IMG/VR virus record: IMGVR_UViG_3300042460_002243
Span: 1-40,602 of that record
Direction: 5' to 3' (one strand)
Source of the DNA: a virus
Length of the DNA: 40,602 nucleotides
In this document: piece by piece, positions 26,382-31,088 of the stretch
How positions within the stretch are numbered: the stretch's first letter is position 1
Layout of the letters: every line of letters begins with the position of its first letter
The notes under the pieces: model-generated
What the model saw: the letters and a program-made list of their open reading frames with translations, nothing else
The model's database searches: none
What the model was told of the DNA's origin: nothing
Program-made: the position numbers and the translations under genes

Positions 26382-28274
26382 TCAGGACTCCAGGTTGTGC
26401 CCAGTGGTATCGGAAGGCCCCGTTGCAGCGGGGCCTTCCTCGTTTGCGAGGCCCGGCAGGTAGCCGAAGGCCTCGAAGACATCGAGCTGGCCCTGGCACT
26501 CGGAGCTGTCGCTGTACTGCCGGTACCAGTTCTGCTCCTGCAGGCCGAGCGTCTCGCCCGCCTGCTCCTTCTTGCGCAGGGAGAGCCAGTGGCCGAAGCG
26601 CTGCTCCGGCGTCTCCTCGGATTGCTCGGAGGCGCGGATCGCGGCGCGCACCTCTTCCAGGTCGATCACCTGGCCCTGGCGGGCTGCAGGCTGGCTTGTG
26701 ACGGCCTTGGGCGGGTTGAAGCTGTGGCCCATGGCCAGCATCTCCTCTCCGCCGCTCGGCAGTTCGGCCGGCGCCGGGCCGTCCAGAGCGGCCACCATGT
26801 CGGCCGCGGTGAGCGGCATGCGCGCCCGCTGGTTGATCTCGTCGATCTGGTTCTGCTTGCGGGTGACCGCGGCCTGGCGCGACCTCTCGCGCACGTCAGC
26901 CGCGACGTTCTCCTTGGCCCAGCCGATCTTCTCCACCAGCGGCGCCACGCAGATCAGGCGGTGCTTGTGGTCGCGAATCCAGACCTTGCTGTCTTCGTGC
27001 TCGTCGTACTGGTAGATGACCTTGCGGCCCTCGTAGGCCTTGAGGTCGGCGTGCCGGTAGAAGCGGTTGCGGAAGCGAATCTCCCACTGGCGCACCGTGG
27101 CCACCCCGGAGGGGCGCAGCAGATCCGCCACCGGCATGGAGAGCGGGTTCTTCTTCAGGTTGCCGATCAGGTCGTTCGGCGCCTTGCCCTTGAGTCGGTC
27201 GCTGGTGGGCTGGGGCCAGGCGTTGTAGGCGTTGCGGAAGCGCTCCAGCGCCTCGCGCAGCTCGGCCAGGTCCGGCACGTACAGCTCGCCGCGCTTCACC
27301 TTGGTACGCATGCGCGCCAGGGCATCGTCGGTGCGGTCATCGCCGCAGAAGGTGTCGTACTGCTTGCTGAAACGCTTGTTGAAGATGCGGAAGAAGCCTT
27401 CGCCGAAGTCCTTGCCGCGGGCGTTGCCCTTGCGCGTGGGGACGTGCTCGATGCCCAGGCGGCTGAGCAACCCGGCCACGCGCTTGTTCTTGAAGCCGGG
27501 GCCGGGGTCGGTCTGGAACCAGGTGGGCACATGGTCGTAGCGCGCCATGACCGAGCACAGGGCGTAGACCGTGTCCATCGCCGACTCGTTGGCGGCCACC
27601 CAGAAGCCGTAAAGGTAGTTGCTGGCCTTGTCCACGACCGGCGTGATCTCGACGCGGAACAGGTCCTGCGTGTTCGGGTGACGCGACACCAGCTTGATGC
27701 GGTGACCGTCCGAGACCCAGACCTCGCCTACCGCCACGTCGTCCAGGTTGCGGCGGTGGTGCGGCCGGATGTTCTGGTCGTAGTAGTGCTGGCCCAGGCG
27801 CTTCGGCGAAGTCTCGGCGAGGTTGCTGGGCAGCGACTTGAGATAGCGCCTGATCCAGTGGCGCGGAACGTCCAGGTTGTGATCCTGCTTCAGCCAGAAC
27901 GAGATGTCGCCTGCGTCCGGCTGGCTGGGGCGCTGGTAGTACTCCAGGATCAGCGCCTCGCAGCCCTTCTGCTCGCGCTGGCGACCCTTGTACTGGGGCA
28001 CCAACGCCATGATGCCGCCCTCCAGGTAGGCGTAGAGGCGGCGGCGCACGGTGCTCGCGCTCACTCCCAGCTGCGCGGCCTGGGTCTTGGCCAGCCAGTC
28101 CGCCGCGGTGCGCGTGCTGATGCCCATCTGCCGCACCTTGAGCACAGCCGGCATCAACGCGGATTCGAGAGCCATGGCCTGCTCGCGCTGGGCGTCGGTC
28201 AGCCGGGACCACTCGTCCTGCTGGTGCGGCGCCAGCTCCTGCATCTGCGGCAGGGCCTTGAGGAGCGCGCTCAT
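26382..28274 (-). CDS. A: Transposase A (DDE, Mu/Tn552 family)
   Basis: A 630-residue DDE transposase that joins phage ends to target DNA. N-terminal DNA-binding helices (VRQMGISTRTAADWLAKTQA, then VSASTVRRRLYAYLEGG) are followed by the catalytic domain with VWVSDGHRIKLV (Asp189), WFQTDPGPGFKN (Asp256) and GKDFGEGFFRIFNKRF (Glu292), i.e. D, D and E with 35 residues between the last two. The mu-type beta barrel follows (FRNRFYRHADLKAYEGRKV). The C-terminal region is helical and should bind B. It overlaps the upstream gene by 4 nt. Confidence 0.97.
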   Translation of the reverse strand: MSALLKALPQMQELAPHQQDEWSRLTDAQREQAMALESALMPAVLKVRQMGISTRTAADWLAKTQAAQLGVSASTVRRRLYAYLEGGIMALVPQYKGRQREQKGCEALILEYYQRPSQPDAGDISFWLKQDHNLDVPRHWIRRYLKSLPSNLAETSPKRLGQHYYDQNIRPHHRRNLDDVAVGEVWVSDGHRIKLVSRHPNTQDLFRVEITPVVDKASNYLYGFWVAANESAMDTVYALCSVMARYDHVPTWFQTDPGPGFKNKRVAGLLSRLGIEHVPTRKGNARGKDFGEGFFRIFNKRFSKQYDTFCGDDRTDDALARMRTKVKRGELYVPDLAELREALERFRNAYNAWPQPTSDRLKGKAPNDLIGNLKKNPLSMPVADLLRPSGVATVRQWEIRFRNRFYRHADLKAYEGRKVIYQYDEHEDSKVWIRDHKHRLICVAPLVEKIGWAKENVAADVRERSRQAAVTRKQNQIDEINQRARMPLTAADMVAALDGPAPAELPSGGEEMLAMGHSFNPPKAVTSQPAARQGQVIDLEEVRAAIRASEQSEETPEQRFGHWLSLRKKEQAGETLGLQEQNWYRQYSDSSECQGQLDVFEAFGYLPGLANEEGPAATGPSDTTGHNLES

Positions 28275-29356
28275 GCCTCAGCCTTGATCTTCTTGGGGCG
28301 GCCGCGGCCACCCTTGTCGTTCTGGCGCTTGGCGTCGCGGTTCTCGGCCGAGGTCTGGTGGCGCTTGAGGATGATGTCCAGCGCGCCCTTGGCCACCAGC
28401 AACTCGCCGTCGCTGAGGGTGTGCTCGAAGTCCAGCTTGCCGGTGACGTCCTTGCCGAAGTCGTCCTGGATGCGCTGCAGCAGGCCCTGCAGTCGGGCCT
28501 GCACCGACAGAGCAGTGTGGAACACCGTGCCGGCCGCACGCTGCGCCCACTCCGGGAAGTTCTTGGCGTCCGTGTTGTCCTGCAGGCGGTCGCTGACCAG
28601 GTCCTCCAGGGCGGTGACGGCCAGCATCATCTGCTCGCCCAGGGCCACGCCCTCCTGGCGGGCATGCGCCGCGAAATCCGGCATCTTGATGCTGTCGTAG
28701 CGGTGGCGGAGCTGGCCCTTCAGATCCTTCAGCTCGGCCTGCAGGCCTTCCTTGGCTGCTTCCAGCGTGGCGATCTTCTTGTCCGCCTTCACCAGCTCCG
28801 GGTCGCGGATCTTCTCGTCGAACTCGCGAGTAGACATCTCCACCGCAGCGTCCAGGGTGATGCCGCGCACGGCTTTTCCGCTGGCCAGGGCCTGCTGTTC
28901 CTTGCGGTCCCATGCCTTGATGGCCATGGCCTTGGTGATGCCGAGCTGCGCCAACGCCTGGACGACATGCAGGTCCGGCAGGGCCGCAAAAAACTCGTAC
29001 ACCTCGATGGCGTCGTAGGCGCTACGGCGGGCGATCATGCGGCTGGCCAGCTCGGCACTGAACTGGCCCGGCAGCAAGCTGTTCTTCAGCTCCTGGAAGG
29101 CGCGGCCGGCCAGGATCTTGCCGGCCGTCTCCATCAGCAGGCCGCGCTTGCCCGCCGCCCACAGGGTCTCCACGTCGCCGGTGATGGTCTCGAAGTGCCC
29201 GAGGGTCTGCTCCAGGTAGGCCTGGAGCTGCTGGGGCATTTCCAATTGAGAATGATTCTCACGGTGTGCGGGCGCCCGCACAACTCCCGGATGAGAATCA
29301 TTCTCGCCGTGTGCGGGCGCCCGCACACGCTTGTCGGTGGTTCTAGTAGTGCTCAT
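28271..29356 (-). CDS. Early protein upstream of transposase, with Fur-box-like repeats in its start
   Basis: A 361-residue helical protein, unknown function, in the place just before tnpA in BcepMu-like phages. Residues 11-40 are two 15-residue repeats (VRAPAHGENDSHPGV, VRAPAHRENHSQLEM). A core with ELASRMIARRSAYDAIEVYEFFAALPDLHVV, a coiled coil (KADKKIATLEAAKEGLQAELKDLK) and a basic tail (KGGRGRPKKIKAEA) follow; the last is AT-hook-like (RGRPKK). The start at 29356 has GAGAGGA upstream; the ATG at 29239 would skip the repeats and has a poor ribosome site. Confidence 0.82.
   Translation of the reverse strand: MSTTRTTDKRVRAPAHGENDSHPGVVRAPAHRENHSQLEMPQQLQAYLEQTLGHFETITGDVETLWAAGKRGLLMETAGKILAGRAFQELKNSLLPGQFSAELASRMIARRSAYDAIEVYEFFAALPDLHVVQALAQLGITKAMAIKAWDRKEQQALASGKAVRGITLDAAVEMSTREFDEKIRDPELVKADKKIATLEAAKEGLQAELKDLKGQLRHRYDSIKMPDFAAHARQEGVALGEQMMLAVTALEDLVSDRLQDNTDAKNFPEWAQRAAGTVFHTALSVQARLQGLLQRIQDDFGKDVTGKLDFEHTLSDGELLVAKGALDIILKRHQTSAENRDAKRQNDKGGRGRPKKIKAEA
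29247..29328. repeat. Two 45-bp repeats, each a Fur-box-like dyad plus an 18-20 bp palindrome
   Basis: TGAGAAT G ATTCTCA (29247-29261) and TGAGAAT C ATTCTCG (29292-29306) match the 7-1-7 Fur-box pattern. Each is followed, 3 bp on, by the palindrome TGTGCGGGCGCCCGCACA (29265-29282; extended by one base each side at 29309-29328). Period is 45 bp, in frame with the protein. They lie just after a terminator and just before transposase. Confidence 0.75.
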
Positions 29357-29586
29357 GGTCCTCTCGGAACGGCTTTGAAGGGGTTAAAAAGCCCCGGCCA
29401 CCGTCGTGGCCGGGGAGCTGGCAACCAGCCCGGCTGATGGGCTGGATGGAGGAGCAGTGCGAGCAGGCACTCCGCGTCGAGTGGATCGACGTGGGGGGCT
29501 GTCGCGTTGACGAAGGCGCGGCGCAGCTGGGCCTTGGCCGTGGAGCGGGCTAGGTGCTGGCGGCGGTGGCGGCGAGGCTTGATCAT
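29353..29586 (-). CDS. Possible small early protein
   Basis: A 77-residue frame coupled at both ends by ATGA (to the genes at 29583 and 29356). The first half is basic and helical (KPRRHRRQHLARSTAKAQLRRAFVNATA, DPLDAECLLALLLHP). The last 25 residues are coded by a strong terminator hairpin, which is odd for a real gene. Coupling supports it; composition argues against. Confidence 0.45.
   Translation of the reverse strand: MIKPRRHRRQHLARSTAKAQLRRAFVNATAPHVDPLDAECLLALLLHPAHQPGWLPAPRPRRWPGLFNPFKAVPRGP
29386..29415 (-). terminator. Intrinsic terminator inside the early operon
   Basis: On the minus strand CCCCGGCCAC GACG GTGGCCGGGG is followed by CTTTTT. A perfect 10-bp stem plus T-run. It lies 30 nt before the start of the 361-residue gene, so it could limit transcription into transposase. 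Confidence 0.85.
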
Positions 29587-30062
29587 CGGCTCAGCCTCTT
29601 GGTGAGCTGGGCCATGCGGCGGCGCTTCACGGCAATCTCGACTGTGGCCTGGCCGATCTCTTTGGCGGCAAGCTCTTCAGCGTCCACCATCTCATTGCCC
29701 AGGGCGCTGACCAGGACTTCCATGGCGCTGTGGTCCTCGACGGCCCAGCAGAAGGCTGGCAGGTAGATAGCGGGCAGCTGGTGGAACTCCTTGGAGTCCG
29801 CCATCCAGCTATCCACCATGCGCTTGGTGATCGGCTTCTTGAGGCCAGGCAGCGCCAGGTTCATGCGGTCGGCGATCCGGGCACGGCTGAGATTCCGGCT
29901 GGAGCAGGCCCGACGCATGGCGCCGTCCACCTTCCCCAGGAATTCGGCCGCGACCGTCAGGTCCGGAGCGTTCGGGCGGTGGATCACCGGAGGCTGATCC
30001 AGGCCGGGGAACAGGTCCCCCTGGTTGCTGGAAAAATCTCGTGGGCGTTTTGCCGGCGACAT
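29583..30062 (-). CDS. Early protein of unknown function
   Basis: A 159-residue protein after ner. It has GLDQPPVIHRPNAPDLTVAA, a helical RRACSSRNLSRARIADRMNLALPG, KKPITKRMVDSWMADSKEFHQLPAIYLPAFCWAVEDHSAM and a basic end. A helix-turn-helix-like part (LSRARIADRMN) hints at DNA binding. Common in BcepMu-like early regions. Starts 21 nt after ner. Confidence 0.8.
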   Translation of the reverse strand: MSPAKRPRDFSSNQGDLFPGLDQPPVIHRPNAPDLTVAAEFLGKVDGAMRRACSSRNLSRARIADRMNLALPGLKKPITKRMVDSWMADSKEFHQLPAIYLPAFCWAVEDHSAMEVLVSALGNEMVDAEELAAKEIGQATVEIAVKRRRMAQLTKRLSR

Positions 30063-30083
30063 GAACCTGGACTCGGGATACAG

Positions 30084-30338
30084 TTACGCCACTCGCTTGG
30101 CGCGCTTGCGCCGAGCGGCTGGGGTGTCCGAGTACTTGCCCGGCCAGAGGACAGACACAGGCGTGCCGAGGGCTTCGCTAATGCGCTTGGCAATGCGCTT
30201 GCTCTTGTTCTTACCGGCGATGACGCGGCTAACAGTGCCCTTTGAGACCTTCAGGTCGCGGGCGACCATGGCCGGGCGGTAACCGCACTTTTCGAGCGAC
30301 GCTTTGATGTCGGCGGGGTGCACAGTTTTTTGTTCCAT
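30084..30338 (-). CDS. ner: Ner-like early regulator
   Basis: An 84-residue helix-turn-helix protein of the Ner/Nlp type: HPADIKASLEKCGYRPAMVARDLKVSKGTVSRVIAG, then KRIAKRISEALGTPVSVLWPGKY. The final WPxxY pattern is typical of Ner. Ner turns down both the early and the repressor promoters after infection. Start taken at the ATG at 30338; a GTG at 30344 inside the operator is possible. The first early gene. Confidence 0.88.
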   Translation of the reverse strand: MEQKTVHPADIKASLEKCGYRPAMVARDLKVSKGTVSRVIAGKNKSKRIAKRISEALGTPVSVLWPGKYSDTPAARRKRAKRVA

Positions 30339-30380
30339 GAGCACAACTTGTTGTGCTGATACTGAACAGGTATTTGTGCA
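30339..30380. promoter_or_regulatory. Lysis/lysogeny switch region with palindromic operator
   Basis: A 42-bp gap between divergent ner and repressor genes. It contains AGCACAAC TT GTTGTGCT (30340-30357), a perfect 18-bp palindrome, and a further half site TTGTGC at 30375-30380. For ner, a consensus TTGACA (minus strand, 30387-30382) sits 17 bp from a weak -10 CAGTAT (30364-30359), which puts the start inside the palindrome, so repressor or Ner binding would block it. The -35 lies within the repressor gene. Confidence 0.75.
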
Positions 30381-31088
30381 ATGTCAAGCATTAGAGCCCA
30401 AGAAATTGGTGAACGACTTAAGGAGGAGGTCAACCGCTTAGGCGGCCCCTCCGTTATGTCCAAAATTTTGGGCGTCCACCGGAACACCATTAACAATTGG
30501 TTTACGACTGGTGCGGCGGATGCGGAGGCACTCTCCCTCATGGCTGAGCACGGGATCGATGTGGTCTACGTGCTGCAGGGCAAGCGCGAGCTGAGCGCAA
30601 GCCTCTTTTCCAAGGGGGTCGGCGGCGGCCAGATCAGCGTGCGCTTCGCGGAACGCGACTTCTGGATTTCTCCAGACGACTACCGCTGGATACCGGTGAT
30701 GAACGTCAAGGTGGCAGGCGGCTCAGGTGCGACCGCCAGCGCCGAGAATGTCGTGGCCTTTAACGCATACCGAAAGAGTTGGCTCGATGAGCAGGGACTG
30801 CTGACCGCCGAACTGAGCGAGGTCACCATCACTGGTCGTTCTATGGAACCGGTCCTCCCCGATGGAAAATCGGTGCTGGTGAACCATTCGGACACTGACC
30901 CGCAAGGCGGCTCGATATACGTGGTGCGTCAAGATGAGGATCTGATCGCGAAGTACCTGCAGAAGCTCCCAGGCGGCAGGCTTCAAGTCAGCAGTGAGAA
31001 CGGCGCAGCCTTCCCTCCGTACGAGGTGAAGGAATCCGACATTGCCGCAGGTTCGTTTGCCATCGTGGGGCGGGTGGTCCCGCGATGA
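30381..31088 (+). CDS. c: Phage repressor, S24 peptidase (CI/LexA-like)
   Basis: A 235-residue repressor. Residues 20-65 are a helix-turn-helix (GGPSVMSKILGVHRNTINNW). Residues about 105-235 are an S24 autoproteolytic domain with the nucleophile in TGRSMEPVLPDG (Ser154) and the Lys in DLIAKYLQ (Lys191). An Ala-Gly at 112-113 (VKVAGGSG) may be the self-cleavage site. It should therefore be inactivated by RecA during DNA damage, unlike Mu c. This differs from Mu c but resembles BcepMu and lambda-type repressors. It keeps the early promoter off in the lysogen. Confidence 0.95.
   Translation: MSSIRAQEIGERLKEEVNRLGGPSVMSKILGVHRNTINNWFTTGAADAEALSLMAEHGIDVVYVLQGKRELSASLFSKGVGGGQISVRFAERDFWISPDDYRWIPVMNVKVAGGSGATASAENVVAFNAYRKSWLDEQGLLTAELSEVTITGRSMEPVLPDGKSVLVNHSDTDPQGGSIYVVRQDEDLIAKYLQKLPGGRLQVSSENGAAFPPYEVKESDIAAGSFAIVGRVVPR

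Follow-up and report, generated by a model that had tools for sequence, protein, structure and literature searches.

Gene-internal palindromes in B3/BcepMu-like phages are candidate parS-like sites for the helix-turn-helix protein that the gene encodes

Results

A gene with two palindromic repeats precedes transposase A

The DNA analyzed here, referred to as the window, is a 40,602-base phage record from a B3/BcepMu-like transposable phage whose early genes, transposase A among them, lie on the minus strand (Table 1). The palindromes described below are located in a phrog_1748-type gene that encodes a relative of B3 ORF13, a DUF3102 protein. The window protein matched the phrog_1748 profile with E=8.9e-9 and the B3-type protein with E=5.9e-119. 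DUF3102 was matched by 21 of the 22 relatives in alignment A4, and the window protein itself did not reach the threshold for DUF3102 in a Pfam search. The family gene is directly upstream of transposase A in the window, B3, JBD25, Ps59, phiSHP3, KS10, TJ1, and others, with one short extra gene in between in PhiKM and TJ1. In every annotated relative examined it sits between the regulators and transposase A.

The start codon (ATG 29356) is preceded by a Shine-Dalgarno-like GAGAGG, and the start is identical in the closest related prophage (L003). An alternative downstream ATG at codon 40 is possible, with poorer upstream sequence. With a true start at codon 40, the 45-bp repeats would belong to the leader; most relatives have their palindrome deep within the gene. 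The preliminary description placed the repeats between an internal terminator and the transposase genes. Transposase A indeed follows directly, but the terminator-like hairpin is approximately 36 bp upstream of the start codon and not inside the gene. This hairpin amid the early genes is a possible attenuator. The two nearest relatives show a similar hairpin (L003 at about 593-634, and L004 at about 2907-2934).

The first 38 codons contain two units with a spacing of 45 bp (29247-29282 and 29292-29327; 92% identity over 36 nt), whose coordinates, dyads, GC palindromes, and symmetry are as first described. Along the gene the order is A1-B1-A2-B2, where A is a GC palindrome and B is a Fur-box-like dyad. 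The units are in frame on the minus strand and encode the peptides VRAPAHGEN and VRAPAHREN. Two perfect copies of TGTGCGGGCGCCCGCACA are located at 29265-29282 and 29310-29327, the latter widening to the 22-bp A1, and the window contains no third copy within 3 mismatches (0.13 expected). Considering the window alone, a palindrome of this length is only moderately unusual (2 of 20 Markov shuffles had a longest arm of 11 or more), and the strong evidence on the palindromes comes from the relatives. The repeat-encoded N-terminus (residues 1-36) is predicted to be disordered (pLDDT <50, AlphaFold2 model), which fits selection at the DNA level in the window gene.

Table 1. Features of the window, with coordinates, and palindromes of the related genes
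Feature	Coordinates	Strand	Remarks
Transposase A	26382..28274	minus	rve and Mu-transpos_C domains; directly downstream of the 361-aa gene; domain match
361-aa phrog_1748-type gene	28271..29356	minus	carries the sites; translation and profile match
Predicted ParB/Noc-like DNA-binding domain	28805..29182	minus	residues 59-184; AlphaFold2 model; HTH helices H98-105 and H110-124
VVQALAQLG segment	28940..28966	minus	residues 131-139; palindrome place in most relatives, none in the window
Fur-box-like dyad B2	29247..29261		TGAGAATGATTCTCA; perfect 7-1-7
Palindrome A2	29265..29282		TGTGCGGGCGCCCGCACA; perfect 18 bp; identical in L003
Fur-box-like dyad B1	29292..29306		TGAGAATCATTCTCG; one mismatched pair
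Palindrome A1	29308..29329		CGTGTGCGGGCGCCCGCACACG; perfect 22 bp; codons 10-17; identical in L003
Intrinsic-terminator-like hairpin	29392..29415	minus	T-rich tail
S24-type repressor	30381-31088	plus
B3 palindrome			CAAAACGGACAACGTTGTCCGTTTTG
Ps59 palindrome			CAAAAGCGCCAACGTTGGCGCTTTTG
Palindrome of Stenotrophomonas-type phages			CAAATGCGTCGACGTCGACGCATTTG
Mae-JY22 palindrome			CCAAAACGGGCGGCGCCGCCCGTTTTGG
KP12 palindrome			CCAAAAGCGCAAGCGCTTGCGCTTTTGG
L017 palindrome			CAAATGTCCGAGCGCTCGGACATTTG
L010 palindrome			CGAGTGCGCACGTGCGCACTCG
L015 palindrome			GAAATCGCCGGACGTCCGGCGATTTC
TJ1 palindrome			CAAATGTGCGTACGTCCGCACATTTG; one mismatched pair

The GC palindrome is the conserved element of the repeat

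The combined dyad-plus-palindrome pattern had no match in viral contigs and a single match in GTDB genomes, which is the same gene in a related prophage of Solimonas sp. SE-A11 (L003; protein 82% identical to the window protein). It had been proposed that a scattered palindromic repeat was caught in the gene. Within 1 mismatch, the Solimonas genome contains two copies of the 18-mer, both in this gene, and with one GTDB match in all, a dispersed host repeat (REP- or RPE-like) was rejected. A comparison of relatives for absence of the repeat, also proposed earlier, found the N-terminal repeat missing in L004 (56% identical). L004 nevertheless has three TGTCCAARCGYTTGGACA-type palindromes, two in the gene and one upstream. 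The GC palindrome, secondary in the preliminary description, is the conserved element.

Palindromes within the gene are common and selected as DNA

We traced the gene family through genomes, viral contigs, and phage records. A tblastn search with the window, L004, and L013 proteins found no matches among phage records, and more distant members served as bridges. Perfect palindromes of 15-28 bp within the coding sequence are common among the relatives (phrog_1748/phrog_4623; DUF3102; B3 ORF13), and while their sequence differs by lineage, their design is common. Two types of position were found. One directly follows the predicted recognition helix, at the motif that aligns with the window protein's VVQALAQLG; the other is the N-terminus, as in the window, L003, L013, L015, and TJ1. 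A perfect long palindrome is missing in approximately 22 of the 54 non-redundant genes (about 40%). Clear degenerate or short palindromes are present in, for example, L016, L018, L027, L030, L032, and L087, and no palindrome was found in L060, L061, L064, and L092-L094 (PM105 and KS10 are among the palindrome-less genes). Two records stand apart. Klebsiella phage KP12 (L058; OM835952) is classified in Vequintavirinae, the part that was fetched contains a B3-type transposase operon, and a prophage or a mixed record could account for this. In the B3-like contig IMGVR_UViG_2675903566_000004 (L078), a frameshift at the palindrome, either a real lesion or a sequencing error, shortens it to 25 bp.

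We found perfect arms of at least 9 bp in 32 of the 54 non-redundant genes, compared to 1.74 expected from synonymous codon shuffles that keep the protein. The downstream transposase genes contained such arms in 0 of 52 cases (1.35 expected). Furthermore, across seven divergent phiSHP3-clade genes, all 9 palindrome codons are identical at the DNA level in 7 of 7, while 62 of the 70 other invariant residues vary in codon (Fisher p=1.2e-7). Since the palindrome codons are frozen while the others vary, selection acts on the DNA palindrome and not on the peptide alone.

Sites co-vary with the helix-turn-helix region

We aligned 25 distinct even-length sites on their centre. They follow the common design CAAAW...CG...WTTTG, in which the outer CAAA/TTTG is frequent and C and G flank the axis of symmetry in 21 of the 25 sites. 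The inner positions vary symmetrically, with three pair types at position -7, four at -5, and three at -4, and zero mismatches at these positions. The paired fraction is 94%, compared to 55% in shuffles, partly by construction since symmetry across the 11 inner pairs guided the choice of sites. The window site matches the common design and has TGTGCG in common with TJ1. JBD25-type genes (phrog_4623) contain two odd-length sites with the core ACSGT and symmetric, allele-specific flanks; wherever both were found they are spaced by 26 codons, except in L024 (30 codons). Four IMG/VR source genomes of P. aeruginosa apparently contain two family prophages each (L067/L101, L075/L102, L076/L103, and L071/L106); judged by contig names only, each pair is one B3-type and one JBD25-type, never the same type twice.

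Half-sites change symmetrically and co-vary with the helix-turn-helix region of their own gene. Once the rest of the protein is corrected for, half-site similarity tracks the similarity of this region (partial Mantel r 0.52, permutation p 0.0002, 34 sequences), part of which linkage alone could yield given that site and helix-turn-helix are close together in most members. In the reverse comparison, the remainder of the protein contributes next to nothing (partial r 0.07). The B3 and Ps59 proteins diverge strongly within codons 81-150 and are near-identical elsewhere, and the two genes have different sites. Together with L067 and L068, two further alleles with differing recognition helices and sites, they form a set of genes that are near-identical save for approximately 70 codons containing the helix-turn-helix and the site; each of the four has a different site. 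The same swap pattern is displayed in E. coli by PhiKM and L122. By these sequence comparisons, helix-turn-helix and site are exchanged as one cassette in Pseudomonas and E. coli phages. Such cassette exchange suggests, by analogy with plasmid incompatibility, selection for distinct specificities.

The encoded protein is predicted to resemble ParB and Noc DNA-binding domains

AlphaFold2 models of the window and B3-type proteins each contain a helical DNA-binding domain; long helices come after it, and only helices before it. The best VIA matches of the window model were Spo0J-parS (Z 6.3), Noc-NBS (6.1), and Thermus Spo0J (6.1), and ParB or Noc chains comprise 10 of its first 13 VIA rows. Those of the B3-type model were Spo0J-parS (Z 7.4) and Caulobacter ParB (7.3), closely followed by the RuBisCO factor Raf1 (7.1). 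Several of the best-matching ParB, Spo0J, and Noc structures are site-bound complexes. These structural scores are moderate (VIA Z 6.3-7.4; Foldseek probability 0.91 and E 0.24 for the window model; no Foldseek E <0.2). When both profiles were searched against the sequences of solved structures, only coiled-coil and bZIP-type chance matches came up. A Pfam search of the window protein and 22 relatives for the N-terminal CTP-binding domain (ParBc) gave no match, and the annotations of the B3, JBD25, and phiSHP3 genomes list no ParA. With the CTP-binding domain not found and no ParA annotated in B3, we do not call the family protein a ParB. In ParB and Noc, specificity maps to the helix-turn-helix and the helices after it, which are residues 162-230 in Caulobacter ParB (PMC7383237).

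Sites are few per phage and cassettes are rarely duplicated in one genome

The B3 site is the sole palindrome with arms of at least 9 bp in the 38.4-kb genome. phiSHP3 also contains one site, while JBD25 and the window contain one close pair each. We used one full-length E. coli gene as a query and found 690 places in 624 of 5426 complete E. coli genomes, leaving 66 extra copies. Two individual cassettes were found at 390 places in 388 genomes and at 90 places in 88 genomes, so a second copy of one cassette in a genome is rare. E. coli strain AREA_487 contains both tested alleles, at different places. The rarity of same-cassette pairs is only suggestive, as repressor immunity and clonal sampling could explain it.

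Discussion

We consider it quite probable that the GC palindromes are dimeric parS-like sites for the ParB/Noc-type, CTPase-less helix-turn-helix protein of their own gene, inherited and exchanged with it as a cassette. We infer that the encoded protein binds the palindrome within its own gene. By keeping a parS-like site inside the gene of its reader, the family would have the site and its specificity determinant inherited and exchanged together. The family gene precedes transposase A among the early genes, which in a related phage, Fc02, are transcribed as the early lytic pE operon; the only functions assigned in that operon are those of the two transposases (A and B), gemA, and mor (PMC9936078). 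A complex bound inside the early operon, ahead of transposase A, could hold back read-through into the genes of the transposase. Allele-specific feedback on transposase read-through is the most likely consequence, which we put forward tentatively. Counterpoints to binding by the encoded protein are that the window sites are N-terminal and away from the usual place, that part of the family genes have no perfect long palindrome, and that the structural matches are moderate, with the ParB CTPase domain absent. Rather more doubtful is the alternative consequence that the complex marks phage DNA for transposition or for partition-like functions and segregation.

Other readers of the palindromes have to be weighed. 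Another phage protein, such as transposase A, a Ner-like or IclR-like regulator, or a CII-like protein, might bind the sites, for example as an internal transposition enhancer. Mu contains an internal enhancer bound by its transposase, and the constant position of the family gene between the regulators and transposase A in the annotated relatives would suit such a role. However, cassette swaps alter the gene's own helix-turn-helix segment together with the site and leave the rest of the gene unchanged, and no further palindrome copies were found in the B3 genome within 6 mismatches or in the window within 3, which makes this reading unlikely. Less probable still is a role of the palindromes at the RNA level, as hairpins of the early mRNA that attenuate translation or transcription, rather than as DNA-protein sites. 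A palindrome of 26-28 nt would form a strong hairpin, and an RNA stem also yields covariation of paired bases. Yet the central two base pairs, which a hairpin loop would leave unpaired, show the same degree of self-complementarity as the other positions: position -2 is paired in 25 of 25 distinct sites with four pair types, and position -1 in 24 of 25, counts partly biased by site choice. Nor does an RNA hairpin predict that site sequence tracks the helix-turn-helix region.

The preliminary description had raised iron-responsive control of transposition. On this reading, the operon of the transposase would be regulated by host Fur bound at the TGAGAATNATTCTCA dyads. Transposition control may be involved, given that the gene precedes transposase A family-wide, whereas the Fur part is very improbable. 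The perfect dyad has 2 mismatches of 15 to the 7-1-7 Fur consensus and the other has 3 of 15; two matches within 3 mismatches were seen in the window compared to 0.07 expected, and B2, the copy nearest the gene body, is also perfect in L003. The two dyad copies are one duplication, however, so one chance match is enough. Among the relatives read, the dyads are restricted to the window and L003, which has the same start and a degenerate B1. The dyads are within coding sequence, no promoter-like site was found in 28200-30500, and a secondary dyad beside the palindrome is not a family feature (1 of 27, compared to 0.72 expected). Fur control is therefore unsupported as a general explanation, and the dyads are a lineage-specific extra. 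In Ps59 (L054), an additional inverted repeat, AAAGAGC-AA-GCTCTTT, lies at 2873-2890, 23 bp away from the main palindrome's centre. Short dyads near the palindrome also occur in L031/L044/L045 and L017, and such dyads are not enriched overall.

A ParB-type protein without the CTPase and a single self-encoded parS-like site, joined in one cassette, may constitute an allelic incompatibility-like recognition system; of this we are a little less confident than of the feedback on read-through. If so, each phage would recognize only its own DNA or operon among co-resident prophages, acting on transposition or its control. Our literature search, of incomplete coverage, found no paper tying this gene family to an internal palindrome, and the pairing of protein and site seems not to have been noticed before. 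The family gene is one of the functionally unassigned pre-transposase genes of B3/BcepMu-like phages, for which a function and an exact DNA target are now predicted. The many natural protein-site pairs provide material for work on changes in DNA-binding specificity, and the family illustrates that a site located within its reader's gene can stay together with that reader.

Several known systems resemble parts of this arrangement. Rickettsia palindromic elements are palindromic DNA in frame in genes, as here, but are dispersed across many genes, whereas the phage sites are at a single locus and differ in sequence. KfrA of IncP plasmids has an N-terminal helix-turn-helix and a long helical tail, as is predicted for the phage family protein, and binds its own operator region; to our knowledge its site does not swap inside the gene as a cassette. 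The lambda origin consists of four dyad iterons inside gene O, bound by the protein of that gene. Dyad sites within the gene of a DNA-binding protein are the common element, with binding predicted in our case, but the lambda protein is unrelated and acts at a replication origin, whereas the phages described here transpose and mostly contain one site. ParB/Spo0J-parS and Noc-NBS differ in that the phage protein has no detected CTPase domain, with no ParA annotated in B3, and in that the phage has one site or one close pair, inside its own gene. Furthermore, the parS sequence is highly conserved, while the phage site diverges widely among close relatives. These systems are nonetheless the best structural matches of both models, and their specificity block is the block that is swapped in the phage family. 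parS is a 16-bp palindrome with a central CG (half-sites TGTTTCAC and GTGAAACA), the phage sites are mostly centred on CG as well, and one Bacillus subtilis parS sits inside spo0J.
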